A stretch of 64,000 nt of DNA from Methanoculleus methanifontis (GTDB taxonomy: Archaea > Halobacteriota > Methanomicrobia > Methanomicrobiales > Methanoculleaceae): contig NZ_VCYI01000009.1 of NCBI RefSeq assembly GCF_030464365.1, positions 1-64,000 on the forward strand. Reading direction: 5' to 3'. A program made the position numbers and the translations under genes. The notes under the pieces are model-generated. The model saw only the letters and a program-made list of their open reading frames with translations, was not told the DNA's origin and did no database searches. Shown piece by piece: positions 49,143-62,915 of this stretch (within the stretch, counting starts at the first letter, position 1; the number at the start of each line of letters is the position of its first letter).

Positions 49143-50354
49143 ATGCAAAACGTGATACCAAGACGGAAGAAGACAGTTCGGGAGATCGACGTGCAGGGCA
49201 AAAGGGTGCTCGTCCGTGCCGACTTCAACGTGCCTCTCGATGAAGAAGGGGCAATCGCCGATGATACCCGTATTCGAGCCAGCCTGCCGACGATACGCTA
49301 CCTCTGCGAGCGGGGGGCGCGGGTGATCCTCTGCTCCCACCTCGACCGGCCGAAAGGTGAGATCGTCGAACGGTTACGCCTCGCTCTCGTGGCAAACCGG
49401 CTCTCCGAGCTGCTTGACCAGCCGGTCGTCGCGCTCCGGGACTGCATCGGACCGGAGGTGGAGAGCGCGGTCGCGGCGATGAACGATGGGGATATCATCC
49501 TCCTCGAGAACCTCCGGTTCCACTCAGAGGAGCGGGCGGACGACTCCCCCTTTGCGGAGAGGCTCGCCGGTCTTGCCGATGTCTACGTCAACGATGCGTT
49601 CGGCGCCTCGCACCGCGCCCACGCATCGGTCGTGGGTGTCCCACAGCACCTGCCGGCGGTGACCGGGCTCCTGCTGGAGAGGGAGGTCAGCGCGTTCACG
49701 CGGATCCTGGAAAAACCTGAGAGGCCGTTTGCCGCAGTGATCGGCGGTGCCAAGGTGAGCGATAAACTGGAGGTTCTCGATAACGTCATCTCCCGGGTGA
49801 ACCTCCTTCTCATCGGGGGAGGCATGGCGGCGACGTTCCTTGCAAGCCGGGGCTACCAGACCGGTGCGTCGCGCGTCGAGACCGACCGCCTGGACGACGT
49901 CAGAAGGATCGAGGCGAATGCCGGGCGACGCGGCGTCCGCCTCATCCTTCCTCGTGACGTCGTCGTCGCAGAGAGGCTGGAAGCGGGCGCCCCGACCCGG
50001 GTTGTGTCCGCGACGGAAATCCCGGACGGCTGGATCATCGCCGATATCGGACCGGGGGCTGCCGACGAGTTCTCCCGGGAACTCGGGAATGTGCGAACCG
50101 TCGTCTGGAACGGGCCGATGGGGGTCTTCGAGATCCCGGAGTTTGCGGAAGGAACCCGCCGCGTCGCCGCGGCCCTCGCCAACCTCCGCGGCACCACGGT
50201 CATCGGCGGCGGTTCGACAACGGATGCGGTGCAACGGTTCGGGCTTGCCGACGAGATGACCCACGTCTCGACGGGTGGCGGGGCTGCGCTGACCATGCTC
50301 GCGGGCAAGGCGCTCCCGGGCGTTGAGGCGCTCGATGATGCAGAGACACCATGA
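49143..50354 (+). CDS. pgk: Phosphoglycerate kinase
   Basis: 403 residues. RADFNVPLDEEGAIADDTRI at the N-terminus, SHLDRPKGE (with the substrate histidine and arginine), DAFGASHRAHAS, VIGGAKVSDKLEVLDN, and the C-terminal GGGSTTDAVQRFGL nucleotide loop. Interconverts 1,3-bisphosphoglycerate and 3-phosphoglycerate, used mainly for gluconeogenesis in methanogens. Start at ATG 49143; a TATA element (CTATATATG) near 48992 is 150 bases upstream. Overlaps the phosphofructokinase gene by four bases. Confidence 0.95.
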   Translation: MQNVIPRRKKTVREIDVQGKRVLVRADFNVPLDEEGAIADDTRIRASLPTIRYLCERGARVILCSHLDRPKGEIVERLRLALVANRLSELLDQPVVALRDCIGPEVESAVAAMNDGDIILLENLRFHSEERADDSPFAERLAGLADVYVNDAFGASHRAHASVVGVPQHLPAVTGLLLEREVSAFTRILEKPERPFAAVIGGAKVSDKLEVLDNVISRVNLLLIGGGMAATFLASRGYQTGASRVETDRLDDVRRIEANAGRRGVRLILPRDVVVAERLEAGAPTRVVSATEIPDGWIIADIGPGAADEFSRELGNVRTVVWNGPMGVFEIPEFAEGTRRVAAALANLRGTTVIGGGSTTDAVQRFGLADEMTHVSTGGGAALTMLAGKALPGVEALDDAETP

Positions 50355-51322
50355 AGCGCATCGGTATCCTGACGAGCGGGGGCGACGCTCCCGGGATGAA
50401 CGCCTGCATCCGGGCGGCGGTGCGGACCGCGCTCGCAAACGACCTTGCCGTCGTCGGGATACGCCGGGGGTATACCGGGCTCATCGCCGGCGACGCGACA
50501 CCGCTCGACCGGAAGGCCATCCGTAACACCATCCACCTGGGCGGCACCATCCTCGAGACCTCCCGGAGTCGGGACTTCTACACCCAGGAAGGGCGGCTCA
50601 AAGCAGCGGCCGCCATCGACCGGATGGGGCTTGACGGGATCATCCTGATCGGCGGCGAGGGAACGTTTCACGGGGCAAGCCTGCTTGCTGCGGATGCGGA
50701 TACAGCGGCGCTCGTGGGGGTGCCGGCGAGCATCGACAACGACGTTTACGGGACCGACTACTGCATCGGGTTCGATACGGCGGCAAACTGTGCGGTCGAG
50801 GCGATCGACCGCATCCGCGATACCGCCCGGTCGCACGACCGGCTCTTCTTCATCGAGGTGATGGGGCGGACGGCCGGGTTCCTGGCGCTCGAGAGCGGCA
50901 TCGCCGGCGGCGCCGAGGAACTGGTAATCCCGGAAGAGGAAGTCTCGGTCGACCGGATCAGCGAGCGCATCAAGAAAGGGTTCACCATCGGCAAAAAGAG
51001 CGCGATCGTGGTGGTGGCGGAGGGGAAGAGACCCGGCATCTCTTTTGAGATTGCCCGGGAGGTCGGGGAAAACCTCAACTTTGACTCGCGGGTCGTCGTC
51101 CTCGGCCACCTCCAGCGGGGCGGGCCGCCGACACTGCGTGACCGGGTGCTCGGGAGCCTCCTCGGTTTTGCCGCCGTCGAGGCGCTGATGGATGGGCGGA
51201 GCGGGTGCATGGTAGGAGAAGTCGGCAGAGACCTCACGTGTACGCCGCTTGAGGAGACCTGGCAGAAGAAGAAGCCGCTCGATAAGAATCTGCTGCGGAT
51301 ATTCCCGTTCCTCTCGGAGTAG
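50351..51322 (+). CDS. pfkA: 6-phosphofructokinase, bacterial PfkA type
   Basis: 323 residues with PfkA marks: GILTSGGDAPGMNACI, a GGEG loop at residues 101-104, PASIDND at 125-131, GFDTAANCAVEAID and VVLGHLQRGGPP. The glycine in GGEG and lack of lysine in PASIDND point to ATP rather than pyrophosphate use, although Glu103 replaces the usual aspartate that helps bind Mg. Methanogens normally use the unrelated ADP-dependent enzyme, so this looks acquired. It overlaps pgk (ATGA), giving a glycolysis/gluconeogenesis pair. Confidence 0.88.
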   Translation: MKRIGILTSGGDAPGMNACIRAAVRTALANDLAVVGIRRGYTGLIAGDATPLDRKAIRNTIHLGGTILETSRSRDFYTQEGRLKAAAAIDRMGLDGIILIGGEGTFHGASLLAADADTAALVGVPASIDNDVYGTDYCIGFDTAANCAVEAIDRIRDTARSHDRLFFIEVMGRTAGFLALESGIAGGAEELVIPEEEVSVDRISERIKKGFTIGKKSAIVVVAEGKRPGISFEIAREVGENLNFDSRVVVLGHLQRGGPPTLRDRVLGSLLGFAAVEALMDGRSGCMVGEVGRDLTCTPLEETWQKKKPLDKNLLRIFPFLSE

Positions 51323-51493
51323 AAGGGGGCAGACAGAACACGGGCCGCGCTTGCAAAAAAAAGCGGTCTCGACACCCCACCGGGGCTGGTGGTCGCCAGC
51401 CCCGGAATAGGGGAAAATGGCAGGACGTTGAAGTTTTCCCAGGAATGCTGTCACTATAGATACTTTTGCCGCGCGAAAAAACGGGTGATGCGC

Positions 51494-51619
51494 TTAATAC
51501 GCTGTCCACCCGCCGTCGGCCGCAACAACCGCACCGTTCACGAAGCTGACATTATTCGAGATTGCCGCGCTCATCCCGCAGCTCGCTCCGACGATAACGG
51601 CAACCCAATCTGATGTCAT
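51494..51619 (-). pseudogene. Short-chain dehydrogenase relic: N-terminus fused to C-terminus
   Basis: A 41-codon frame starts MTSDWVAVIVGASCGMSAAI (the SDR cofactor loop is TGASSGMGAAI) and continues directly with SNNVSFVNGAVVAADGGWTAY, the SDR C-terminus seen in the genes at 52.8 and 58.1 kb. About 200 central codons, including the Tyr-Lys active site, are gone with the frame kept. It lies just downstream of the zinc alcohol dehydrogenase. Confidence 0.75.
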
Positions 51620-51651
51620 GCTGGTAACACACTTCAATATCGGTTCGGATC

Positions 51652-52611
51652 TTACCTATCCATGATGGCGACCATTCTACCTTTAACGCCGCCCTGTTTT
51701 AATTTCTCCAGACCCTCAGCGATCTCCTCAAACCCAATCTCGGTGACGTCCGGCTTGAGGTCGCCTGATGCCATCATCTTATAGACGCTGGCGATATCGT
51801 CGACGTTACCGCCCTGGCTACCGACGATTGTGACCTCTTTCGTGATCAGGGGCATCGTGTTGAGGGTGGTCTCCAGTTTCGCCATACCGACCAGGACGAT
51901 GCGGCCGTTGACGCCAACCGCTTCCAGGGCATCTGTGGTTGTCTGGCCAGCGCCGGCAAAGTCGACGATGACATCCAGATCGTGGTGTTCGGCGACCTCG
52001 CCGATCGTCGGGTATGCAGCCTTGCACCCGAGTTTCATGGCCTCTTCCCGTGCGGCGGGGTTCCTGGAAGCCGCGTATACGTTGGCGCCCTTGAGGACCG
52101 CAACCCGGGTGCCTATCTGGCCCAGGCCACCGATGCCGATGATGCCCATGTTGATGCCGGGCCTGGCACCGCCCGCCACGGCTACCGCATGATGGGACGT
52201 CATCCCCGCGTCGGTAGCGGCCGCAGCGTAGGCAAAAGAAACGTTATCGGGAACCGGAACCAGCATCTCGGCCGGAGCGGTCGACTTCGTGGCGTACCCG
52301 CCGTCCCGGCCGTATCCCCCGCCATACCCGTCTTTGGTGGGCATGGGGCAGACGCCGACTCTATCCCCCACTTTGTATCCGGTGACGCCCTCGCCGATCT
52401 CCGTGATGACGCCGGCGTATTCGTGCCCGATGATGAGCGGATACTTCATCAGCGCCAGCCACTTCTCATCTTCCAGTGCACCGACGTCCGAATGGCAGAG
52501 CCCGCAGGCCTTCACATCGAGCGCGACGTAACCGGGTTTCGCGACCGGATCGGGTTTTTCAACAAGTCTCAGCGGTTTATGTGTGTAGGTAAATTCCCAT
52601 CCTTTCATCAT
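51652..52611 (-). CDS. adh: Zinc-dependent alcohol dehydrogenase
   Basis: 319 residues of the medium-chain dehydrogenase family. Catalytic-zinc ligands appear in KACGLCHSDV and GHEYAGVITEIGEG; the Rossmann motif is IGIGGLGQIGTRVA. The structural-zinc cysteine lobe is missing (PTKDGYGGGYGRDGG stands in its place), which shortens the protein. Oxidises an alcohol with NAD(P), substrate unknown. Start at 52611 or the next ATG. It heads the minus-strand oxidoreductase cluster. Confidence 0.85.
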   Translation of the reverse strand: MMKGWEFTYTHKPLRLVEKPDPVAKPGYVALDVKACGLCHSDVGALEDEKWLALMKYPLIIGHEYAGVITEIGEGVTGYKVGDRVGVCPMPTKDGYGGGYGRDGGYATKSTAPAEMLVPVPDNVSFAYAAAATDAGMTSHHAVAVAGGARPGINMGIIGIGGLGQIGTRVAVLKGANVYAASRNPAAREEAMKLGCKAAYPTIGEVAEHHDLDVIVDFAGAGQTTTDALEAVGVNGRIVLVGMAKLETTLNTMPLITKEVTIVGSQGGNVDDIASVYKMMASGDLKPDVTEIGFEEIAEGLEKLKQGGVKGRMVAIMDR

Positions 52612-52827
52612 AGTTATACTCTCCTCGTTTCAGCTGCTCCATCCTGTCTGGATGTGCAGTCTCGCGATCCAGCACCTACAATCACAACCCCGCCCAGACA
52701 TCCGGTCATCCCATGACGTTTCCCCGGCGGCCGGGTTTGAGCGAAGATACTGGCCGCTCCTGCCGTTGCCGGGGCGCGGGGTCCAGCCCGTGCACCCGCC
52801 CGGCAGGGTGTGTTCGTCTACTCTACC

Positions 52828-53616
52828 TTACCACGCAGACCAGCCGGCATCCGCCGGAACGACTGCGCCATTGACCAGGCTCGCCTCGTCCGATGCGAGG
52901 AAGAGTGCCAGGTTCGCGATCTCCTCGGCCTTACCCATACGCGGGTTGGCCCCGACACCGGCGGAGACGAGTTCCATCCCCTCAGGGTGGCTCTGGGTCG
53001 TCTGGGAGAGCTCCACCATCTCGGTTGCGACGTATCCGGGCGCGATGATGTTGGACCGGATGCCCTTCTTAGCGTACATGTAGCCAGTGTTCTTTGCGAG
53101 CCCGAGGCTCGCGTGCTTGGACGCCGTGTAGGCGGCCCCGCTGTGCCCGCCGTGAGTGCCGCCGATGGATGAAACCGTGACGAAGGCGCCCTTGTTGAGC
53201 CCCTCAGCGTCACCAGGGTTCTTGAGCATCTCGGGGATCGCGGCGCGGAACATGTACATCGGGCCGTCGACGTTGACGGCAAAGACCTGCTCCCACGTCT
53301 TATCGTCGAGATCTCCGACCGGGGCCACCCTGTCCAGGCTGCCCGCGTTGTTGACGACGATATCAAGCTTGCCGAACTCTCGGACGGCGGTCTTCACGGC
53401 ATTCTTGACGTCCTCTTCCTTCGCGACGTCGCCGGAGACGGCGATGGCCGTGCCACCTTTCTTGGTGACCTCGTCGATCACGCCCTGGAGTTTCTCCTTC
53501 CTCCGTGCAATGGCGATGACTTTCGCGCCTTCCGTGGCAAAGCGCTTCGTGATCGCTGCACCCATCCCGGAGCTCGCTCCGGTTACAATTGCTACTTTTC
53601 CATCAAGTCTTCCCAT
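52828..53616 (-). CDS. Short-chain dehydrogenase/reductase (SDR), subtype A copy 1
   Basis: 262 residues. Cofactor loop TGASSGMGAAI, NNAG, active site SSIGGTHGGHSGAAYTASKH (Ser, then YxxxK), and C-terminus DEASLVNGAVVPADAGWSAW. The arginine-rich IARRKEKL after strand 2 favours NADP. Very similar to the SDR at 58.1 kb. Probably reduces a ketone or oxidises a secondary alcohol or sugar. The following gene is fno on the same strand, 42 bases downstream. Confidence 0.9.
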   Translation of the reverse strand: MGRLDGKVAIVTGASSGMGAAITKRFATEGAKVIAIARRKEKLQGVIDEVTKKGGTAIAVSGDVAKEEDVKNAVKTAVREFGKLDIVVNNAGSLDRVAPVGDLDDKTWEQVFAVNVDGPMYMFRAAIPEMLKNPGDAEGLNKGAFVTVSSIGGTHGGHSGAAYTASKHASLGLAKNTGYMYAKKGIRSNIIAPGYVATEMVELSQTTQSHPEGMELVSAGVGANPRMGKAEEIANLALFLASDEASLVNGAVVPADAGWSAW

Positions 53617-53657
53617 GATAATTTCTCCGTCGTTTAGCTGGCCCGGCCCTTGTTGGC

Positions 53658-54344
53658 CTACTTGGTCTCGCAGGCCTTGATCCGGTCAAGGCCGGTGATC
53701 CGGATCCCGCCGAACTGGCACTTGTTCTTGATGTTCAAGCCGATCAGGAGCGGCGTGATCTTTTCGATAATGCAGGCCCGCTCGAGCTTGCCGCAGTCGA
53801 TCACCTTGACACCGGGGATCTTCTCGATCAGCGGGGCCACCATCGCCTTGGCATCCTTGTCGTCGCCGCAGATGAGGCAGTCACAGTCGATCGGTTCGCC
53901 GAGCTGCATGAACCAGGTCTGGGAGATGTTGTTGAATGCGCAGATCACCTTCGCGTCCGGCAGGATCGACTGGGACCGCTCTGCGGCAGACCCCTCGGGA
54001 AGGTCGATGTACTTCGTCGCGGACCCGCCGATACAGGACTCCAGCGGGCCGGTCGCATCCAGCAGGGGCTTTCCGGCTGCACCTTCCTTGATGGAGAGCA
54101 GGGTGTCCTTTTGGGCCGCGAGCGGCACCGTGAGAACCAGGACGTCGGCGGCCTTCGCCGCGTCGGGGTTCGCCATGGCCCGGACGTTCCTGGCGTCCGG
54201 GAGCAGCTCCTTCACCTTGTCCACCGCGGCCTGGGCCTTCTCAATCGTCCTCGAGCCGATGATGACGTCTTCTCCTGCCTCTACAAAACGGGTCGCGATC
54301 CCGAGACCCTGACCCCCCGTTCCACCAATTACTCCAATTGTCAT
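53658..54344 (-). CDS. fno: NADPH:coenzyme F420 oxidoreductase, copy 1
   Basis: 228 residues. N-terminal NADP loop GVIGGTGGQGLGIATRF, then VIIGSRTIEKAQAAV (Ser-Arg of the NADP phosphate site), VLVLTVPLAAQ, and a C-terminal stretch GKLERACIIEKITPLLIGLN lining the F420 site. Transfers hydride between NADP(H) and F420 in either direction. Start at ATG 54344. It is nearly identical to the gene at 60.6 kb, with the same neighbour order, pointing to a recent duplication. Confidence 0.9.
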   Translation of the reverse strand: MTIGVIGGTGGQGLGIATRFVEAGEDVIIGSRTIEKAQAAVDKVKELLPDARNVRAMANPDAAKAADVLVLTVPLAAQKDTLLSIKEGAAGKPLLDATGPLESCIGGSATKYIDLPEGSAAERSQSILPDAKVICAFNNISQTWFMQLGEPIDCDCLICGDDKDAKAMVAPLIEKIPGVKVIDCGKLERACIIEKITPLLIGLNIKNKCQFGGIRITGLDRIKACETK

Positions 54345-54396
54345 ATCGTTCACCTTTCTGAATTTGTGTTCGTTCTCTCTGTTCGTCTCGCTATAC

Positions 54397-55158
54397 TTAC
54401 ATACAGGTGTAGCCACCGTCGACGACCGTGGTCGTGCCCGTGGTGTAACTCGCTTCGTCGCTTGCGAGATACACAACAGCCGGGTTCAGCTCGCCGTCCC
54501 GCCCGTTCCGGTTCATCGGGACCATGGCCTTCACGTAGGTCTTCCACTCCGGTGACTCGAGCGCGGACTTCGTCAGCGGCGTCGGGAAGAATCCGGGGCA
54601 GATGGCGTTCACGGTGATGTTGTACTGTGCCAGTTCGACCGCCATCTGGCGGGTCACGTTGACGACGCCGCCCTTTGCTGCCTGGTAGCCGACCGTCGAG
54701 GCCGTGGCGCCGACGAGGCCGTACATCGAGGCCGTGTTGATGATCCGGCCGTAGTTGTTCTTGACCATCACTTTCGCGAACTCGCGGGCCACCTTGAAAA
54801 CGGCCGTGAGGTCAACGGCGATCGTCGATTCCCAGCCCTCGTCGGAGTAATCCAGGAACGGTGCCATGTGGGCATTTCCTGCATTGTTGAGCAGGATGTC
54901 CACTTTTCCGTACTCCTTGACGATCTCGCCGACCGCGTTCTTGATCGACTCGGTGCTCGTGACATCGCACTGCACCGCCAGGCACCGGACGCCGAGGGCG
55001 CGGATCTCCTCCGCGACCTCGTCCAGTTTCTCCTTTCTCCGGGCCATGATGGCGAGATCCGCCCCCTGCCCCGCCAGAGCTTTTGCCATCTGCACGCCAA
55101 TACCCGATGATGCGCCCGTTACGGCCGCAACCCGACCGTGTAAATCAAACATTGCCAT
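54397..55158 (-). CDS. Short-chain dehydrogenase/reductase, subtype B
   Basis: 253 residues. TGASSGIGVQMAKAL cofactor loop, NNAGNAHMA, NTASMYGLVGATASTVGYQA with the YQAAK active site, CPGFFPTPL and a C-terminus TTTVVDGGYTCM. Resembles gluconate/3-oxoacyl-type SDRs, substrate unknown. A decayed second copy lies upstream of the second fno gene (61.35-61.47 kb), so SDR-B plus fno formed a duplicated unit. Ends 52 bases before the fno start. Confidence 0.9.
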   Translation of the reverse strand: MAMFDLHGRVAAVTGASSGIGVQMAKALAGQGADLAIMARRKEKLDEVAEEIRALGVRCLAVQCDVTSTESIKNAVGEIVKEYGKVDILLNNAGNAHMAPFLDYSDEGWESTIAVDLTAVFKVAREFAKVMVKNNYGRIINTASMYGLVGATASTVGYQAAKGGVVNVTRQMAVELAQYNITVNAICPGFFPTPLTKSALESPEWKTYVKAMVPMNRNGRDGELNPAVVYLASDEASYTTGTTTVVDGGYTCM

Positions 55159-55194
55159 AGTTGATCTCTCTGTACTCTTCCTGTTCGACGTTCT

Positions 55195-56255
55195 TCACTC
55201 CAGAATCACTGCTGGCTTGATCAGGTTCTTTGGCTTCTCGTGCATCAGCAGGAGAGCCTCTTCGATATCCTCGAAGTTCGTGAACCGGTGTGTGATCAGC
55301 CTGCCCGGATCGATCCGGCCGGCCTTGACGAGGGCGGCCAGCTGTTCCATCCGCGCCCTGCCGCCGGGACAGACATCCCCTTTGATGGTCTTGTTGCCGA
55401 GACCGGCTCCCCATGCAGCAAGCGGGATAGGGATCGACTCGGCATGCTCCATGGCGTTGATGTTCCCGAGCGTGCCGCCGGGCTGCAGGACCTCGACCGC
55501 CTGGCCGATGGTCTCGACACCGCCGCCGGCCGTGATCGCGGCGTCCACGCCCGCACCGTCGGTCAGGTCCATGATCTGACGGACGGTGTCGCCGTTATGG
55601 TAGTCGATGATCTCAGTCGCCCCGTACTCCTTCGCGACCGTAACCGCGTTCGGCCGACTTCCCACAGCGAGGATCCGTGCAGCGCCCAGGAGGTGGGCAC
55701 CGGCAACGGCCATCAGCCCGACCGGCCCGATCCCGAAGACAGCAACCGTGGACCCGAGCCCGACGTTGGCCATCTCGGCGCCGTGAAAGCCCGTAGTCAT
55801 CATATCGCCGATCATGACGGCCTGGTCCAGGCTCACGCCGTCGGGAAGCAGTCAATCTGGGCGTCTGCGTCGTTGACGTGGAAATACTCTGCAAACACGC
55901 CGTCCTTCTGCGTGCAGAACGGCATGCCGGAAGCCATCCCATCACAGTGCTGGGCAAACCCGCGCTGCGAGGGGACACGGAGGTAGTTTGGTGTGATCGC
56001 AGGAACGATGACACGGTCGCCGGGTTTGAAGTCCCTGACCTCGTCCCCTACTTTCTCGACGATGCCGACAGCCTCGTGGCCCATGATGCGGTCCGGGGGC
56101 ATGTAGTCGCCCATATCGCCCCAGATCATGTGCAGCTCTGAGGAGCACGGAGCGAGAGCGAGCGGCCTGAGAATCGCGTCGCGCGGTCCGGCGACAGGTC
56201 TGTCTTTCTCAACCCATCCAATTTTGCCTTTACTTGTTCTTGCTAACCCTTTCAT
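55195..56255 (-). pseudogene. adh: NADP-dependent secondary alcohol dehydrogenase, split by a one-base frameshift
   Basis: The upstream piece (56255 to 55833, 140 codons) reads MKGLARTSKGKIGWVEKDRP, CSSELHMIW, GHEAVGIVEKVGDEVRDFKP, and GVFAEYFHVNDADAQ, ending in CFPTA and TGA. The next piece (55836 to 55195) continues in another frame: MSLDQAVMIGDMMTTGFHGA, VGLMAVAGAHLLGAARILAV, GSRPNAVTVAKEYGATEII. Together they equal the 352-residue family of Clostridium beijerinckii and Thermoanaerobacter brockii ADH. Zinc ligands Cys, His and Asp are present, and GSRP favours NADP. Restoring one G near 55841-55845 gives CFPDGVSLDQA. Could be real decay or an assembly error. Confidence 0.85.
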
Positions 56256-56459
56256 TCAGTCACCTGAATATAATGGAAAGAAGAGTGCGGCACCCCTTAT
56301 AGGTTCGTTTTACTGATAATCGCTAAGGTGCAGAATTTATATGATATGAGACAGACGAGGGGGTTCGTCTCGCCAATAAGCTCCACCCGGGGTCCCGATC
56401 GCTACAGAATATGGGTGTTGCGCGGTTCGCGCGATCAGCGGGCCTTATAACATTGGTTA

Positions 56460-57833
56460 TCAGCGAATACCAGGATCCGAGAGCGGGCCGTTTCCGTCTC
56501 GGACCTCCTTGGAGACATCGATCATAATAGAGGCGAGCTCGCCCGAGGGGAGCTTGAAGAGGTAATGCCAGATCCAGACGTCGTCTCCCTCCCGATACTG
56601 GAGCGGTGGGAGGAAGACCGGGCGCTCCCTGGCAAAACCGTGTTGAACAGTCTTCAACAACCCGGGTTCGGCAAGAGCAGGGAAGACATCCCAGACATTC
56701 CGGCCGATCAGTTCCTCCTTCTTTAGCCCGAGGATCTTCTCGGCCGCCCGGTTGATGTCGTTAAAGACGAAACCCTCACCGCCACGGATCACCCCATAAA
56801 CGATCACGCCGCTGCAGGCGTTCTCGAAGAGCGAGCGGTACCGCGTCTCCCGAAAGGTCAGATCTTTGCGTTCCCGCCGATCGGTCGTGATATCCTTGAA
56901 GAGGATGGCGAACTCGTCTGGGGGACCGCCGTTCTCCCGGCGGATCGGGGTGAAGACCACGTTGAAGTACGCCACGCCGGACTTCGTGCTCGGGATCTGC
57001 TCCAGTTTCATGCGGTCGAAGTCGCAGGCGAGCTCGATCTCGGCCACCTGCCCTGCACGGATCAGCGACTCGAGCGTTCCCGGGGAGCAGGCCAGGATGA
57101 AGATACTCGTGGCGCTCAGTTGCTCGAAGGTTCGCAGCCCGAGGATCTGGAGCGAGGCCGGGTTGGCGTTCAGGATGGTTCCGTCGGCGGAGAACATGAT
57201 AATCCCGCCCGGGACCGTCTCGAAGAGCGTCGCGATCTTCCGCTCCGAGTTCTTCAGGGCAACCTCGGTCTTCTTCAGCGCGGTCATGTCCCGGAGGCTG
57301 ACCATGATCCCGGGCTGGCTGGTCCGCGAGACGATCGGTGCGAAGTCGACGAGATAGATCCGGTCCGTCCACTCGTCGATGATCTGCATCTGGTCGAGAT
57401 ACGTCTCCGATCGGTTGATCCGCTCAATATTCCGTCGGACCGATGGTTCGGAGAAGACCGGCAGGTCGAGGTCGAAGAGCGGAACGCCGACCAGATTCCG
57501 AGACGGCTGGAGGGTGAAGGTGGCGACGAAACTTGCATTCACCGTGCGGATCTGCAGGTCGGTATCCAGGATCACGAGCGCGTTCGGCAGGCGGTCGAAG
57601 ACCTCCGGGAGGGGCAGGCGCTGCGACCGCCGGTAGAGTTTCTTCTGGCCGAACCGTTCCATGCAGACATCGCCGTTCGCAGCAAGGAGCTCAAGGTATT
57701 TGGCGGCGGAGATGCGGGTAATGTCAAGTTCCCGGGCGACCGCCGTCACGGACAGCCCTGTCGTCGCGTGCTCTTCGAGCAGGTCAAGGATCTGGCCGAA
57801 CTGCTCCTGGTATCCGGCCGCAAAGTCCGACAT
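56460..57833 (-). CDS. HTH and PAS domain signal protein
   Basis: 457 residues. N-terminal helix-turn-helix (LSVTAVARELDITRISAAKY) followed by three PAS domains: LPNALVILDTDLQIRTVNAS; KIATLFETVPGGIIMFSADG; and RETRYRSLFENACSGVIVYG. No kinase or cyclase domain is seen. The shape suggests a transcription factor responding to a ligand, redox or small molecule. Lying between the secondary alcohol dehydrogenase and an SDR, it is a likely regulator of the cluster. Start at ATG 57833; longer frames upstream lack support. Confidence 0.7.
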   Translation of the reverse strand: MSDFAAGYQEQFGQILDLLEEHATTGLSVTAVARELDITRISAAKYLELLAANGDVCMERFGQKKLYRRSQRLPLPEVFDRLPNALVILDTDLQIRTVNASFVATFTLQPSRNLVGVPLFDLDLPVFSEPSVRRNIERINRSETYLDQMQIIDEWTDRIYLVDFAPIVSRTSQPGIMVSLRDMTALKKTEVALKNSERKIATLFETVPGGIIMFSADGTILNANPASLQILGLRTFEQLSATSIFILACSPGTLESLIRAGQVAEIELACDFDRMKLEQIPSTKSGVAYFNVVFTPIRRENGGPPDEFAILFKDITTDRRERKDLTFRETRYRSLFENACSGVIVYGVIRGGEGFVFNDINRAAEKILGLKKEELIGRNVWDVFPALAEPGLLKTVQHGFARERPVFLPPLQYREGDDVWIWHYLFKLPSGELASIMIDVSKEVRDGNGPLSDPGIR

Positions 57834-57995
57834 TTGTGACAGAACGTCTCCTTCTCCACTCTCAAATACTTTTTGCCGGCTGTGCTGTGTTGCAGAGAAG
57901 ATAACTGCCTGCTGGTACTCCAGGTCTGTGCCTTTCAACCTTCGGCCGATACATAGTTCGCTGTGAGGGGAGTTGAGGTGCACCGTTCTGCCCAT

Positions 57996-58018
57996 CCTCC
58001 CCGCGATGAACGGGGAGG
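57996..58018. terminator. Strong hairpin between the SDR and PAS genes
   Basis: CCTCCCCG, seven bases, CGGGGAGG: an 8-bp perfect stem, starting about 45 bases past the stop of the SDR gene on the minus strand. No T-run follows. It could be a terminator or processing site, or another IS605-type end, since such hairpins are common at those ends. Confidence 0.35.
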
Positions 58019-58061
58019 CATCCTTCTCGCCCCCGTTTTCCGGCCGGGCGCGGCAACCGAC

Positions 58062-58817
58062 TCAGTAAGCAGTCCACCCGGCATCGGCGACTACCGTCGC
58101 CCCGTTCACGAAACTTGCTTCATCGGAGGCCAGGAAGAGCGCTACGGATGCAATCTCCTCGGCCTCCCCCATTCGCGGGTTGATGCCCATGCCCGCCATA
58201 CATACGGCCGCACCTCCTTCGTTCGCCTCCTGGCCTGCGCCGATCTCGGTCTTGACGCCGCCCGGCGCGATGACGTTCGACCGGATGCCTTTTACGGCGT
58301 ACATGTATGCAACGTTCTTCGCGAGTCCGATCACACCGTGTTTCGACGCCGTATACGCCGCCCCGGCACGGCACCCGTGAAGCCCGCCGATGGATGCGAT
58401 GGTGACAAAGGCGCCGCCGCCGACCTTCACCATCTCCGGGATCGCGGCCCGGAACATCCGCATCGGCCCCGTCAGGTTGACTTCGATGACCGCGTTCCAG
58501 AGATCGCTATCGAGTTCGGCAACCGGAACAAACCGGTCCAACAGCCCGGCGTTGTTGACGACGACGTCAAGTTTGCCGAACTCCCGGACGGCCGTCTTCA
58601 CCACATTTTCAACATCCCCATCACGGGTCACATCTCCGGCAACGGCGATGGCCCTGCCGCCGTCGGCAGCGATCTCATCGATAAGGGTCTGCAGCCTCTC
58701 TTTCCGCCGTGCAAGCGCAACGATCGAGGCGCCTTCCTTTGCAAACCGCTTTGCAATCGCGGCTCCCATCCCGGAGCTCGCTCCAGTGACGATAGCGACC
58801 TTATTTTCCAGCATCAT
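58062..58817 (-). CDS. Short-chain dehydrogenase/reductase, subtype A copy 2
   Basis: 251 residues. TGASSGMGAAIAKRF, NNAGLLDRF, ASIGGLHGCRAGAAYTASKH and DEASFVNGATVVADAGWTAY. Close paralogue of the SDR at 52.8 kb, with the same PRMGEAEEIASVALFLASDE end region. NADP preference is suggested by ALARRKERL. Start at 58817 or the next ATG. Upstream (58860-58925) lies a stretch resembling the palindrome-bearing block at 61.77 kb. Confidence 0.9.
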   Translation of the reverse strand: MMLENKVAIVTGASSGMGAAIAKRFAKEGASIVALARRKERLQTLIDEIAADGGRAIAVAGDVTRDGDVENVVKTAVREFGKLDVVVNNAGLLDRFVPVAELDSDLWNAVIEVNLTGPMRMFRAAIPEMVKVGGGAFVTIASIGGLHGCRAGAAYTASKHGVIGLAKNVAYMYAVKGIRSNVIAPGGVKTEIGAGQEANEGGAAVCMAGMGINPRMGEAEEIASVALFLASDEASFVNGATVVADAGWTAY

Positions 58818-59089
58818 GGCAATTTCCTCCTACGTTAAGCGGGCTGAGGCTGCCTTGAGGCCTGATCTACTATTACGGGAGGGGATCACCCGCCTGCGGA
58901 AGGTTCAAGGAAGACCTCAGTAACGGGCAATTAGGGATTGCACCGCATAAGCATTTGCACACCGCAGAACGAGTACCGTTATCAGGTATTTCGTTGGAAT
59001 GATCAAAGAATGCGCTTTCAGTCGAGATCGGACACGATCCAGGTGATGCTGGAAGCAAATCGATCTTCACATATATGATTACCGGGTAT

Positions 59090-59215
59090 ATTCGGACTGT
59101 GGCGCGCTCGAGCGGGCCTGCATTGTCGAGAAGAACACGCCGCTCCTGATCGGTCTCAACATCAAAAAAACAAGTGCCAGTTCGGTGGCATCCGGATCAC
59201 CGGCCCCGACAGGGG
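59090..59215 (+). pseudogene. Third fno copy, 3' fragment with frameshift
   Basis: Plus-strand text reads DCGALERACIVEKNTPLLIG and LNIKK, then, one base shifted, KCQFGGIRITGP. It matches the C-terminus of both Fno proteins (CGKLERACIIEKITPLLIGL, then CQFGGIRITGL). An extra A in the run after AACATC breaks the frame. No upstream part of fno is present, and the fragment is on the opposite strand from the intact copies, directly upstream of the plus-strand SDR. Confidence 0.75.
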
Positions 59216-59271
59216 TCAGAAGCGCGTCTGCCAGCACCGTCATTCGAACAGAACACAAAGCAGGAACCATT

Positions 59272-60021
59272 ATGGGAAGAATGGAAAACAAAGTCTGTGT
59301 TATCACCGGATCCACCAGCGGTATCGGTGAAGCGTGCGCGAAGGACATGGCAGCCGAAGGCGGCAAGGTCGTCGTCTCTGGCCGGAACGAGAAAGAGGGC
59401 GCGAGGATCGTTAACGAGATAAAAGGAGCGGGTGGAGAGGCGATATTCATCCGGGCGGACGTCGCCATCGAAGACGACGTCAAGAACCTCATCGCGAAGA
59501 CCGTCGAGGCCTTCGGGAGACTGGATGTCTTCGTTGCCAACTCCGGCCTCGGCAGCATTGGTGACCCTCACGAAGTAGAGACAGAAGAATGGGACAGGAT
59601 TCTCAACGTGAACCTGAAGGGCGTCTTCCTCTGCGACAAGTATGCCGTCCAGCAGATGCTGAAGCAGGGTCATGGAGGCGCCATCGTGAATACCGGATCC
59701 ATTCATAGTTTTGTCGCCAAACAGGGTGTCACGGCATACGGCGCCGCCAAAGGGGGCGTCGCCATGCTGACCCGGACGGTCGGCACCAGCTACGCGGCGC
59801 AGGGAATCCGCGCAAATTTCATTGCACCCGGGTATATAGACACGCCTCTCCTCGCTGACCTTCCAGAGGAATTCTACGAGGAGCTGAAAAAACTGCATCC
59901 CATCGGGCGCCTGGGCAAGCCGATGGAGGTCGCGAAGGCCGTCACGTTCCTGGCGAGCGATGACGCTTCGAACATAACCGGAACCAGCCTGCTCGTCGAC
60001 GGCGGGTACACTGCGGTATAG
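59272..60021 (+). CDS. Short-chain dehydrogenase/reductase, subtype C
   Basis: 249 residues. TGSTSGIGEACAKDM loop, NSGLGSIGD (instead of NNAG), NTGSIHSFVAKQGVTAYGAA with YGAAK active site, APGYIDTPL and the C-terminus TGTSLLVDGGYTAV. Most like glucose/3-oxoacyl dehydrogenase SDRs. It is the only intact plus-strand gene in the island. Start at ATG 59272 with AGGA nine bases before, giving MGRMENKVCVITG. Confidence 0.9.
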   Translation: MGRMENKVCVITGSTSGIGEACAKDMAAEGGKVVVSGRNEKEGARIVNEIKGAGGEAIFIRADVAIEDDVKNLIAKTVEAFGRLDVFVANSGLGSIGDPHEVETEEWDRILNVNLKGVFLCDKYAVQQMLKQGHGGAIVNTGSIHSFVAKQGVTAYGAAKGGVAMLTRTVGTSYAAQGIRANFIAPGYIDTPLLADLPEEFYEELKKLHPIGRLGKPMEVAKAVTFLASDDASNITGTSLLVDGGYTAV

Positions 60022-60159
60022 TCCCCGCAGCATCGGGCAGGGTAGCCTGGAAGGATAGCGCGTTCAGCCAGTTCTCACGCTGAGGAACGGGGAGTGACCG
60101 TCCCGCCCCCTTCCCCGGCCCGGGCACGGTAACCGAGCAGGTATGCGGTTCAGTAGGAA

Positions 60160-60395
60160 TTTTCAACTAACTCCGCAATTCCTCCCCGGCCTTTAGGCCG
60201 GGGAGGAATTGCGGTTCACACAAATAACTCTAAATGCTTTTGGGTGAATATGCATATGTGCTCGGAACATCGAGTCCAGAGCACGCACCTACAGGTATAC
60301 CCTGGAGGTGCAGGGTGCAGTCAACCACCCGGACGAGAACTATCGACATGATAGAGTCTCAAGCCCCGCCCTTCAGGGCGGGGTAGTTGACTAAC
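60160..60395. mobile_element. IS200/IS605-type miniature element without tnpB
   Basis: Left side has a perfect 19-bp stem (60173-60191 with 60196-60214, loop TTTA), and the right side CCCCGCCC-TTCA-GGGCGGGG (60364-60383) followed by GTAGTTGACT, the same right end as the tnpB element at 14-15.6 kb. About 150 bases lie between and encode nothing recognisable. It looks like a non-autonomous, palindrome-ended derivative. Confidence 0.6.
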
Positions 60396-60612
60396 AGTCG
60401 CCCCGATCGCGAGCCTGGCTTCATCTGAAACGATGCAAAGAGCCGTGCCGCGAGATCGCAAGGTTGTGAGTAAATAGATCGATGAGACTCTTTTACGCGA
60501 ATTCCCTATAAAAACAGGTAGACCACTCCCGGTCCTGACCCATACCACAATGAGGGAGGCGCATGGTTAAATGCGCTCCCTCGTGTGGTTCCAGGTAGGC
60601 GTGCCCGTATCC

Positions 60613-61290
60613 TCAGGCCCGGCCCTTTTCGAGGCCGGTGATCCGGATCCCACCGAACTGGCACTTGTTCTTGATGTTGAGCCCGATCAGGAGCGGGGTG
60701 ATCTTCTCGATGATGCAGGCCCGTTCGAGTTTGCCGCAGTCGACGACCTTGATCCCCGGGATCTTCTCGATCAGCGGAGCCACCATCGCCTTGGCCTCCT
60801 GGTCATTGCCGCAGATGAGGCAGTCACAGTCGATCGGCTCGCCAAGTTGCATGAACCAGGTCTGAGAGATGTTGTTGAACGCACAGATCACCTTCGCGTC
60901 CGCCAGGATTGACTGTGACCGCTCTGCGGCGGACCCCTCCGGAAGATCGATGTACTTCGTTGCCGACCCGCCGATGCAGGACTCCAGCGGGCCGGTCGCG
61001 TCCAGCAGGGGCTTTCCGGCTGCACCCTCCTTGATGGAGAGCAGCGTATCCTTCTGGGCCGCGAGCGGCACCGTGAGAACCAGGACGTCGGCGGCCTTCG
61101 CCGCGTCGGGGTTCGCAGCCGCCCGGACATTGTTAGCGTTGCTGAGAAGCTCCTTCACCTTGTCCACAGCTGCCTGAGCCTTCTCAACCGTCCTCGAGCC
61201 GATGATGACGTCTTCTCCTGCTTCGACAAAACGGGTCGCGATACCGAGACCCTGGCCGCCAGTTCCACCAATTACTGCAATCGTTGCCAT
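60613..61290 (-). CDS. fno: NADPH:coenzyme F420 oxidoreductase, copy 2
   Basis: 225 residues; over 90 percent of positions equal copy 1 at 53.7 kb, including AVIGGTGGQGLGIATRF, VIIGSRTVEKAQ, PLLDATGPLESCIGGSATKY and ERACIIEKITPLLIGLN. The C-termini differ (EKGRA here, DRIKACETK there). Function as for copy 1. Upstream lies a relic of the subtype B SDR that precedes copy 1, showing the unit was duplicated. Starts at ATG 61290. Confidence 0.9.
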   Translation of the reverse strand: MATIAVIGGTGGQGLGIATRFVEAGEDVIIGSRTVEKAQAAVDKVKELLSNANNVRAAANPDAAKAADVLVLTVPLAAQKDTLLSIKEGAAGKPLLDATGPLESCIGGSATKYIDLPEGSAAERSQSILADAKVICAFNNISQTWFMQLGEPIDCDCLICGNDQEAKAMVAPLIEKIPGIKVVDCGKLERACIIEKITPLLIGLNIKNKCQFGGIRITGLEKGRA

Positions 61291-61344
61291 ATACCTTTCA
61301 CCTCAACCAGTCTACGTTGTTATACTCGCTTTCACTGCTCCTTC

Positions 61345-61470
61345 TATGAGATGCAGTGCATCCGCCATCGACAACCGTGGTTGTCCCCCTGTAACTCGCT
61401 TCTGATGCTTGCGAGGCACACGGCGGCGTGTTCAATACACTCTTCTCCCATATCGTCCCGTTGGGACCAT
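61345..61470 (-). pseudogene. Relic of a subtype B SDR, C-terminal fragment
   Basis: Minus-strand frames give PMVP-like sequence, then EHAAVCLAS, and, after a frameshift, SEASYRGTTTVVDGGCTA. This corresponds to AMVPMNRNGRDGELNPAVVY and DEASYTTGTTTVVDGGYTC of the gene at 54.4 kb. Only the last 45 codons remain, with indels. Its place upstream of fno copy 2 mirrors the intact pair. Confidence 0.65.
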
Positions 61471-61479
61471 GGGCTTGAT

Positions 61480-62399
61480 GCAATTATCCATCTGTTTCGG
61501 AGGACCCCCAAAACGATCTGCGAAGCATAGGCAGGCCTAGAGCAAAGCGCCCACATGCAGGGTTTCGCCCGGGGGCCATAACCTGAGCCGGAACATGGCA
61601 GTCACCCAGTGACCGCACCGGACGATCTCCCTGCTCCTGCCCGAGCGGCAGTCGCATACCGCAGCTGAGGCGCACCCGCTTTTTGCCGGTGCATGAGCAC
61701 CCAGAGGTGCAAATAACGGCTACCTGGAGGCAGGATTTCGAGAGACCCGGATTGCTTTGAGTGGGAAGAACGGAGGGGATATCCCCTCCCGGCAGAGGGT
61801 TTCAGGACGACCTCTCTAAAGAGTAACTCTCACTTGTACCATACATGTGTTTCCCAACCACAAAAAGAGCCTGAATGGGCATAAATCCCCCAGAAACAGG
61901 TTTAATTGACGTTTTTCATGAAACCATCCATTCTGTTTTGGCTTACATCGGATCCGGCATACCGGGCGTATTTGCGTCGCCCATTACGCAAGGTATCCAG
62001 CGGTAAGAGTTGCTGCCATTACAGGCGATGAAGGTCCGGCCCGCTGACGGCGGAATATGCAATGTGGCCCATGCGGTGGTCGGGAGCATAGATTCTGGAT
62101 GTTTCACGGCACCGGACGAGCACTCACTTCCACCAGCAGGGAGGTATAGTCAGATGTGGTATGTGCGTTTTTAAGGTCTTACGGATGAAGAACAACCTGC
62201 GATTGTCCACGCTGCAACAGATGCGCGGCTCCTGGCGATATGGCAGGCGGCACCCCGCACGACCTTGCACTGACTTCCCGGGACTGCGCACGGAAAACGG
62301 CAGTTCCTGCCCGACCTCCTGGACCCGGTGCCCCCTTGCCCCGGCGGTTGATGATTGACCGACAGCGTCCTTTCGCGGAAAGATTTTCCAGAAAAAAAA
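61480..62399. other. Gene-free stretch with one long palindrome
   Basis: I see no supported gene in about 900 bases. The most marked feature is an 18-bp perfect palindrome GGAGGGGAT-ATCCCCTCC at 61772-61789, in a block (through CGACCTC and AAAGAGTAACTC to about 61830) that partly resembles 58875-58925 upstream of the subtype A SDR. AT-rich sequence follows at 61835-61925. Open frames here are short and lack ribosome sites. Confidence 0.4.
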
Positions 62400-62819
62400 T
62401 CAGATTGACTGTTCCCAGCTCTGGCCCATATCAACGAGTGGACGGGCTTCAGCGACCTCAAACGTCACTGAGGCGTGGATCATCGCCGCCGCATCCTCGC
62501 CCGCGACTTTGGCAATCTGCTTGCGGTAATTGTCCAGCATCTCCCCTGAGGTCGCATACTCCTTCATCTTCAGGTAGACCCGGATTCCTTTCCAGTCCAT
62601 GATCGTCTCTCCACTCTCGACAATCGTGTAGACGGCGTTCGGGTTCTCCTGCAGGTATTCAAACGTGCGGTTCTGTCCGAGCCCCATGACGACGGTCTTC
62701 TCGTCGACCATCATCGGCGAACCGAAGATTGCCGCATCGACTTTTCCCTCCTTGTTTGCGGTGCTGAGAAGGCCGATCCTCGGCTGCTTGTTGAAGTAAT
62801 CCATCAGTCTGGATGCCAT
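62400..62819 (-). CDS. Pyridoxamine-phosphate-oxidase-fold flavin/F420 protein
   Basis: 139 residues of the split beta-barrel fold: MDYFNKQPRIGLLSTANKEG, KVDAAIFGSPMMVDEKTVVM, GLGQNRTFEYLQENPNAVYT, and a C-terminal KGIRVYLKMKEYATSGEM. Such proteins bind FMN or F420 and reduce or oxidise small substrates. Start at ATG 62819, eight bases after GGAGG. In an island rich in Fno and NADP enzymes it may be a redox partner, but the substrate is unknown. Confidence 0.8.
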   Translation of the reverse strand: MASRLMDYFNKQPRIGLLSTANKEGKVDAAIFGSPMMVDEKTVVMGLGQNRTFEYLQENPNAVYTIVESGETIMDWKGIRVYLKMKEYATSGEMLDNYRKQIAKVAGEDAAAMIHASVTFEVAEARPLVDMGQSWEQSI

Positions 62820-62915
62820 GATTCTTTCCTCCAATCATATCCAGCCTTATCGCCTCTCCTTAAAATAGTATGGGTGACGGCGTCCCCAGGAAGGAGAGTT
62901 GCGGGAGCTGCGGCC

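Follow-up and report, generated by a model that had tools for sequence, protein, structure and literature searches.

That methanogens can grow on alcohols such as 2-propanol has been recognised since the 1980s, yet recent papers still describe the basis of this growth as poorly studied or underexplored and put forward differing candidate genes (PMC8359780, PMC7374477, PMC10035134). In one known route an NADP-dependent alcohol dehydrogenase works with an F420-dependent NADP reductase, Fno (Berk and Thauer 1997 and Bleicher and Winter 1991, as cited in PMC8498797 and PMC8359780); the other relies on the F420-dependent alcohol dehydrogenase Adf, and the presence of adf correlates with 2-propanol growth in Methanospirillum (PMC11346949). 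Here we describe a gene island of Methanoculleus methanifontis (genome of 2.61 Mb, 99.9% complete), located in a 64,000-nucleotide stretch of contig NZ_VCYI01000009.1 (positions 1 to 64,000, referred to as the window). It is probably a regulated alcohol-oxidation locus in which NADP-dependent dehydrogenases would pass electrons through a dedicated Fno to F420 under the control of a linked regulator, REG, with a modular origin and piecemeal loss. The substrates, the use of NADP by the short-chain dehydrogenases/reductases (SDRs) and by the zinc dehydrogenase ADH1, the direction of flow, and the binding and signal of REG are what we infer, whereas anatomy, homology, co-occurrence, synteny, the promoter element and the frameshift are read from sequence.

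The core of the island is a minus-strand operon that runs, 5' to 3', from REG (57833-56460) through sADH (56255-55195), SDR_B, fno1 and SDR_A to ADH1 (end 51652), with SDR_C, SDR_D and fno2 on its upstream side:

51652-52611, minus strand: ADH1, zinc dehydrogenase of the medium-chain dehydrogenase/reductase family, 319 aa, intact frame
52828-53616, minus strand: SDR_A, classical SDR with YTASK and the NADP-type 'ARRKE' after beta-2
53658-54344, minus strand: fno1, F420:NADP oxidoreductase of the island-type clade (TIGR01915; PDB 5n2i and 1jax matches)
54397-55158, minus strand: SDR_B, classical SDR with YQAAK and NADP-type 'ARRKE'
55195-56255, minus strand: sADH (ADH2), NADP-dependent secondary alcohol dehydrogenase of the TbADH type, with a 1-nt frameshift near 55,857
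56296-56323, minus strand: promoter element, partial palindrome GCGATTATCAG plus TAAA-N6-CTATAAG, 57 nt before the sADH start (7-locus alignment)
56460-57833, minus strand: REG, putative N-terminal winged helix-turn-helix (HTH) and about three PAS domains (PAS hits, weak HTH hit, 27-member alignment)
58062-58817, minus strand: SDR_C, 64% identical to SDR_A
59272-60021, plus strand: SDR_D, classical SDR with YGAAK and NADP-type 'SGRN'
60613-61290, minus strand: fno2 (TIGR01915), 93% identical to fno1

The best PDB match of sADH is the NADP-dependent alcohol dehydrogenase 1BXZ (E 7.3e-131, residues 1-352 of 353). Alignment to the Thermoanaerobacter brockii enzyme (TbADH) reveals that it keeps the catalytic zinc ligands C37, H59 and D150, together with the NADP residues G198-S199-R200 and Y218. 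It is thus supported as a secondary alcohol dehydrogenase closest to the NADP-dependent TbADH, with oxidation of secondary alcohols as its predicted activity. Its frame is split into 140 and about 217 codons (56255-55833 and 55848-55195, overlapping) by a one-nucleotide deletion near 55,857. The gene is unbroken in five aligned orthologues (L009 from UBA430, L010 from NL_3.1, L011 from HGW-Methanomicrobiales-6, L012 and L013) and, since the ratio of nonsynonymous to synonymous substitution rates (dN/dS) is 0.04-0.16 against relatives for both halves, the lesion is likely to be recent or a sequence error. A programmed frameshift was rejected, as no slippery site was found by inspection and the relatives are continuous. 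A second TbADH-type sADH, intact and 55% identical, lies elsewhere in the genome (G000:C29:63004-64059; L123), without fno and adjoining a transposase-like open reading frame (ORF); no homologue of fno or of the SDRs lies next to the Methanosphaera sADH (L020, 64%).

Both Fno proteins, which are 93% identical, score above the curated cut-off of TIGR01915 npdG (227.3 bits for fno1 and 225.1 bits for fno2, cut-off 149.8). As in 1JAX, fno1 carries the NADP 2'-phosphate residues S31, R32 and K36 (1JAX numbering). The housekeeping Fno of this genome is about 33% identical to the island Fno and is nearest to A. fulgidus 1JAX; fno1, unlike the housekeeping copy, scores better to 5N2I. An Fno homologue is present in all 26 genomes of the family that are at least 90% complete, nearly all of the other type, 31-37% identical to fno1. 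Because the housekeeping copy is nearest to 1JAX, the 31-37% type prevails elsewhere and fno1 lies nearer to 5N2I, the island Fno is assigned to a separate accessory clade, apart from housekeeping Fno, with predicted NADPH:F420 activity. Among 232 Methanomicrobiales genomes, island-type Fno occurs in 15, TbADH-type sADH in 45 and both in 13; sADH is found in 13/15 genomes with island-type Fno and in 32/217 others (Fisher p = 9e-9, uncorrected for shared ancestry). The two genes are adjacent in most cases, often 35-350 bp apart, within modules that are shuffled between Methanomicrobiales loci (REG-sADH-SDR_B-fno, REG-fno-sADH, REG-sADH-fno-SDR_D, REG-fno-SDR_A-ADH1 and fno-SDR_C); outside the order, a fno-SDR_C pair was found with its fno broken. 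In one Methanoregulaceae-type genome (G214; L111, L112, L113, L114), fno occurs in several distinct modules that differ in their dehydrogenases and mostly carry a REG of their own, as though every module were devoted to its own alcohol.

REG contains PAS domains matching PF08448, PF13188 and PF13426 above cut-off, and its N-terminus gives a weak, below cut-off match to HTH_IclR (E 0.0019). This region is modelled as helices and a wing-like hairpin at medium confidence (mean predicted local distance difference test score 74), and a Foldseek search with it gave no significant match. The ORF reaches 57995, with the conserved part beginning at 57833. Homologues of REG lie upstream of sADH/fno modules and of adf. 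In ten genomes searched, nearly every REG-family copy with more than about 45% identity lies next to an alcohol module, and the sole exception (G018) is directly upstream of an adf whose protein matches Adf 1RHC (E 1.5e-198). A REG homologue also precedes adf, on the same strand, in 20/20 further adf loci from four families, giving 21/21 overall. The regulators of sADH modules, fno modules and adf fall largely apart in the tree. Where the presumed recognition helix begins (alignment A2, columns 39-43), they read TRIS, DRKT/DRRT and NRGS/NRAT for the sADH, fno and adf types, respectively; these residues vary in parallel with the operators, possibly as a specificity code. An adf gene (1RHC homologue at E <= 1e-120) occurs in 36/232 genomes and none was detected in this one at that threshold, so Adf was rejected as the route here.

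In 7/7 held-out REG-adjacent modules, a 30-column matrix trained on six sADH promoters reached top scores, at positions 54-82 nt from the start; at most 1/298 other upstream regions and 0/15 REG-less genes scored equally high. The window site is the only match in this genome to the 17-mer pattern. TAAA-N6-TATA is present at 44-71 nt in 11/13 REG modules (one more match, in L107, lies at a different position and was left uncounted) and in 0.9% of 325 control regions; in its strict form it occurs in 11/21 adf upstream regions, with a near variant in most other adf promoters. As this pattern was first noticed in the same promoters, the weight rests on the held-out matrix test and not on the pattern count. 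The 5' palindrome differs by subgroup, being CYGATWATCRG for sADH and ATTGTTSAACAAT or AATGGCGAGCAAT for adf. CYGATWATCRG was rejected as an order-wide operator, as it is conserved in sADH promoters only and alone fails to separate the held-out promoters. For the latter reason our claim of a shared feature is limited to the TAAA-N6-TATA architecture; most of the discriminating power of the matrix disappears when its TATA columns are removed. We infer that REG binds the palindrome/promoter element, and the element shared by REG-adjacent promoters suggests that alcohol-driven methanogenesis is under a regulator common to the order. On balance we lean towards a broader proposal, in which the REG family would be an alcohol-responsive regulator throughout Methanomicrobiales, with paralogues each directly upstream of their own target (sADH/SDR with dedicated Fno, or adf) and acting through an operator, varying by subgroup, located immediately 5' of the shared TAAA-N6-TATA promoter. 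The dehydrogenase-plus-Fno modules would then be interchangeable plug-ins by which alcohol substrates are gained or dropped. The adf upstream regions in L223-L242 (e.g. L230:6268-6540 and L240:6135-6412, both minus strand) also have a conserved 5' leader of about 220-250 nt with a short hairpin, some pairs of which covary; it matches no Rfam family and is possibly a structured regulatory leader.

YxxxK occurs in all four SDRs, each of which ends its beta-2 with a basic residue rather than Asp/Glu. A basic residue at this position is associated with NADP, which suggests that SDR_A-D use this cofactor. ADH1 lacks the structural-zinc cysteine lobe, and 'ASRN' after its beta-2 suggests NADP(H). 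It is 92-97% identical in three other full islands, and a homologue adjoins island-type fno and an SDR in the Methanoregulaceae-type genome (L111). SDR_A is kept at 83-97% in relatives (internally deleted in L011), SDR_B at 87-97% (dN/dS 0.05-0.08) and SDR_D at 92-96%, the last also lying beside sADH-fno in G196 (L107). SDR_C persists at the same site in G005, G007 and G008, either by itself or together with SDR_D. It is plausible that the SDRs widen the alcohol range, because, in loci of other genera (L111, L112, L107, L161), homologues of SDR_A, SDR_C and SDR_D again lie next to this Fno clade.

Three other Methanoculleus genomes share the gene order of the operon, and Methanoregulaceae-type metagenome-assembled genomes share it in part; the operon genes are under purifying selection (dN/dS 0.035-0.29). 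The island is flanked by a PNPOx-like gene (PPOX) and a 6-phosphofructokinase-like gene (PFK), which are neighbours 49-86 bp apart in six island-free Methanoculleus genomes. The comparison across Methanoculleus that a first-pass annotation of the window had proposed finds this site in states from empty to full island, including fno alone (fno2, in G035, G034 and G024), ADH1 alone, SDR_A-ADH1, SDR_C alone, SDR_C-SDR_D or short scraps. The remaining features of the window region are as follows:

50351-51322, plus strand: PFK, backbone flank, syntenic across Methanoculleus
51495-51638, minus strand: SDR scrap, an SDR start and end fused by internal deletion (tblastn 62-71% to the SDR_A/SDR_C C-terminus; repeat family D4)
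59095-59216, plus strand: third fno copy, decayed C-terminus, frameshifted (tblastn 82-94% in two frames; inverted repeats I1/I2)
about 61290-61440, minus strand: SDR_B copy with decayed 3' end, upstream of fno2 (aligns with the SDR_B-fno1 junctions of L009, L010 and L011)
62400-62822, minus strand: PPOX, PNPOx-like small protein, the other backbone flank, outside the island (PF01243 weak, below cut-off)

A fno C-terminal scrap like that at 59095-59216 is present at the same place in G007, G008, G009 and G013. Given such shared scraps at one site, we favour an island that was ancestral in Methanoculleus and has been lost repeatedly and piecemeal, over repeated gain; the PFK tree, a single-gene tree with weak deep support, scatters the full islands. 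Such loss could explain why alcohol use would differ between species of Methanoculleus. These comparisons revise the first-pass annotation in part. Its four SDRs, two fno genes and PAS-domain regulator are all borne out, whereas of its two zinc alcohol dehydrogenases only ADH1 is intact, sADH not being one open frame. The genes it listed are real, with the three decayed scraps overlooked. The SDR set, which it called unusually large, appears to be what is left of several dehydrogenase-plus-Fno modules that were gathered at one site and are now decaying. The flavin-fold protein that it counted as an island member is PPOX, rejected by synteny since it adjoins PFK in the island-free genomes and belongs to the backbone. 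An Rfam scan of the window gave no match. In the SDR_D-fno2 gap (60180-60400) there are paired short GC-rich hairpins that resemble, by eye, the ends of IS200/IS605-type elements, with no transposase between them. Just beyond the window end, near PPOX, lies a luciferase-family (F420-type) oxidoreductase gene (G000:C30:64500-65342), which is not Adf; other Methanoculleus genomes have counterparts of it close to this site.

Our results are consistent with the following mechanism. REG, encoded just upstream, would sense alcohol, directly or indirectly, and would switch the operon on, most likely by way of the element before sADH. sADH, ADH1 and the SDRs would transfer hydride from secondary alcohols such as 2-propanol to NADP, and the dedicated Fno would pass it from NADPH to F420, with F420H2 feeding CO2 reduction and methanogenesis. 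The locus would have been assembled from recurring modules of REG, dehydrogenase and island-type Fno, and the ancestor of Methanoculleus would already have carried it between PPOX and PFK. The proposal that an NADP-dependent alcohol dehydrogenase and Fno feed F420, already made in the first reading, is well supported by the TbADH-like sADH, the Fno-sADH co-occurrence and the same-family regulators before adf. Several observations weigh against this mechanism: in this genome the sADH of the operon carries a frameshift, island-type fno stays at the site without a neighbouring dehydrogenase in G035, G034 and G024, the co-occurrence test takes no account of shared ancestry, the substrates of the SDRs are not readable from sequence, and Fno also works in reverse, making ketone reduction possible.

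The SDRs and ADH1 might instead serve another pathway, acting on polyols, sugars, fatty acyl or steroid-like substrates and merely sharing the locus with sADH and fno. The family models do name sugar, hydroxybutyrate, butanediol and acyl substrates, but nearly all of these matches are below cut-off and are weak guides; the recurrence of SDR_A, SDR_C and SDR_D homologues beside the same Fno clade, and the cyclohexanol and borneol dehydrogenases among the nearest PDB relatives of SDR_A, make this unlikely. We similarly doubt that the island survives in this genome as a functionless relic, as the frameshifted sADH, the three scraps and the repeated loss across the genus might imply: fno1, fno2, ADH1, the four SDRs and REG are all open, those tested having dN/dS well below 1, the one lesion in sADH may be of recent date or an artefact of assembly, and the genome has a second, intact sADH. 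Least convincing is a reverse flow, in which Fno would make NADPH from F420H2 under high H2 and the dehydrogenases would reduce ketones or aldehydes as detoxification or an electron sink. In its favour, methanogens oxidise secondary alcohols reversibly and turn to reducing ketones when H2 is high (PMC8359780), descriptions of archaeal Fno mostly give the NADP-reducing direction (PMC8498797), and carbonyl and levodione reductases are among the nearest PDB relatives of ADH1 and SDR_A. Against it, the housekeeping Fno makes a second one unnecessary for NADPH supply, and same-family regulators precede adf, with its correlation to 2-propanol growth in Methanospirillum (PMC11346949).

Alcohol oxidation through NADP and a dedicated Fno, our preferred reading, relates to described systems as follows. 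The island sADH resembles TbADH (1BXZ/1YKF) over its full length, with zinc ligands and NADP residues kept, and differs in being archaeal, encoded with Fno and SDRs, and frameshifted in this genome. The island Fno belongs to the same family as the canonical archaeal enzyme of A. fulgidus (PDB 1JAX/1JAY) and shares its SR..K NADP-phosphate residues, but has about 33% identity with the housekeeping Fno and scores nearer to 5N2I. The chemistry, alcohol with NADP and then NADPH with F420 through Fno, is that of the known pathway of alcohol-using methanogens, described biochemically; the literature searched, which largely excluded subscription papers, gave no description of such a gene cluster, of a dedicated Fno clade or of a regulator for it. 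That literature therefore appears to contain no account of the modular island and its decay, of the Fno clade dedicated to it or of the shared regulator. Unlike the island, the Adf system uses a luciferase-like enzyme, absent from this genome, that reduces F420 directly without NADP or Fno, yet it has the same metabolic outcome and the same regulator family directly upstream. The locus supplies the NADP route with a concrete set of genes and with a dedicated Fno that can be tested, and a single regulator family connects the two known routes.

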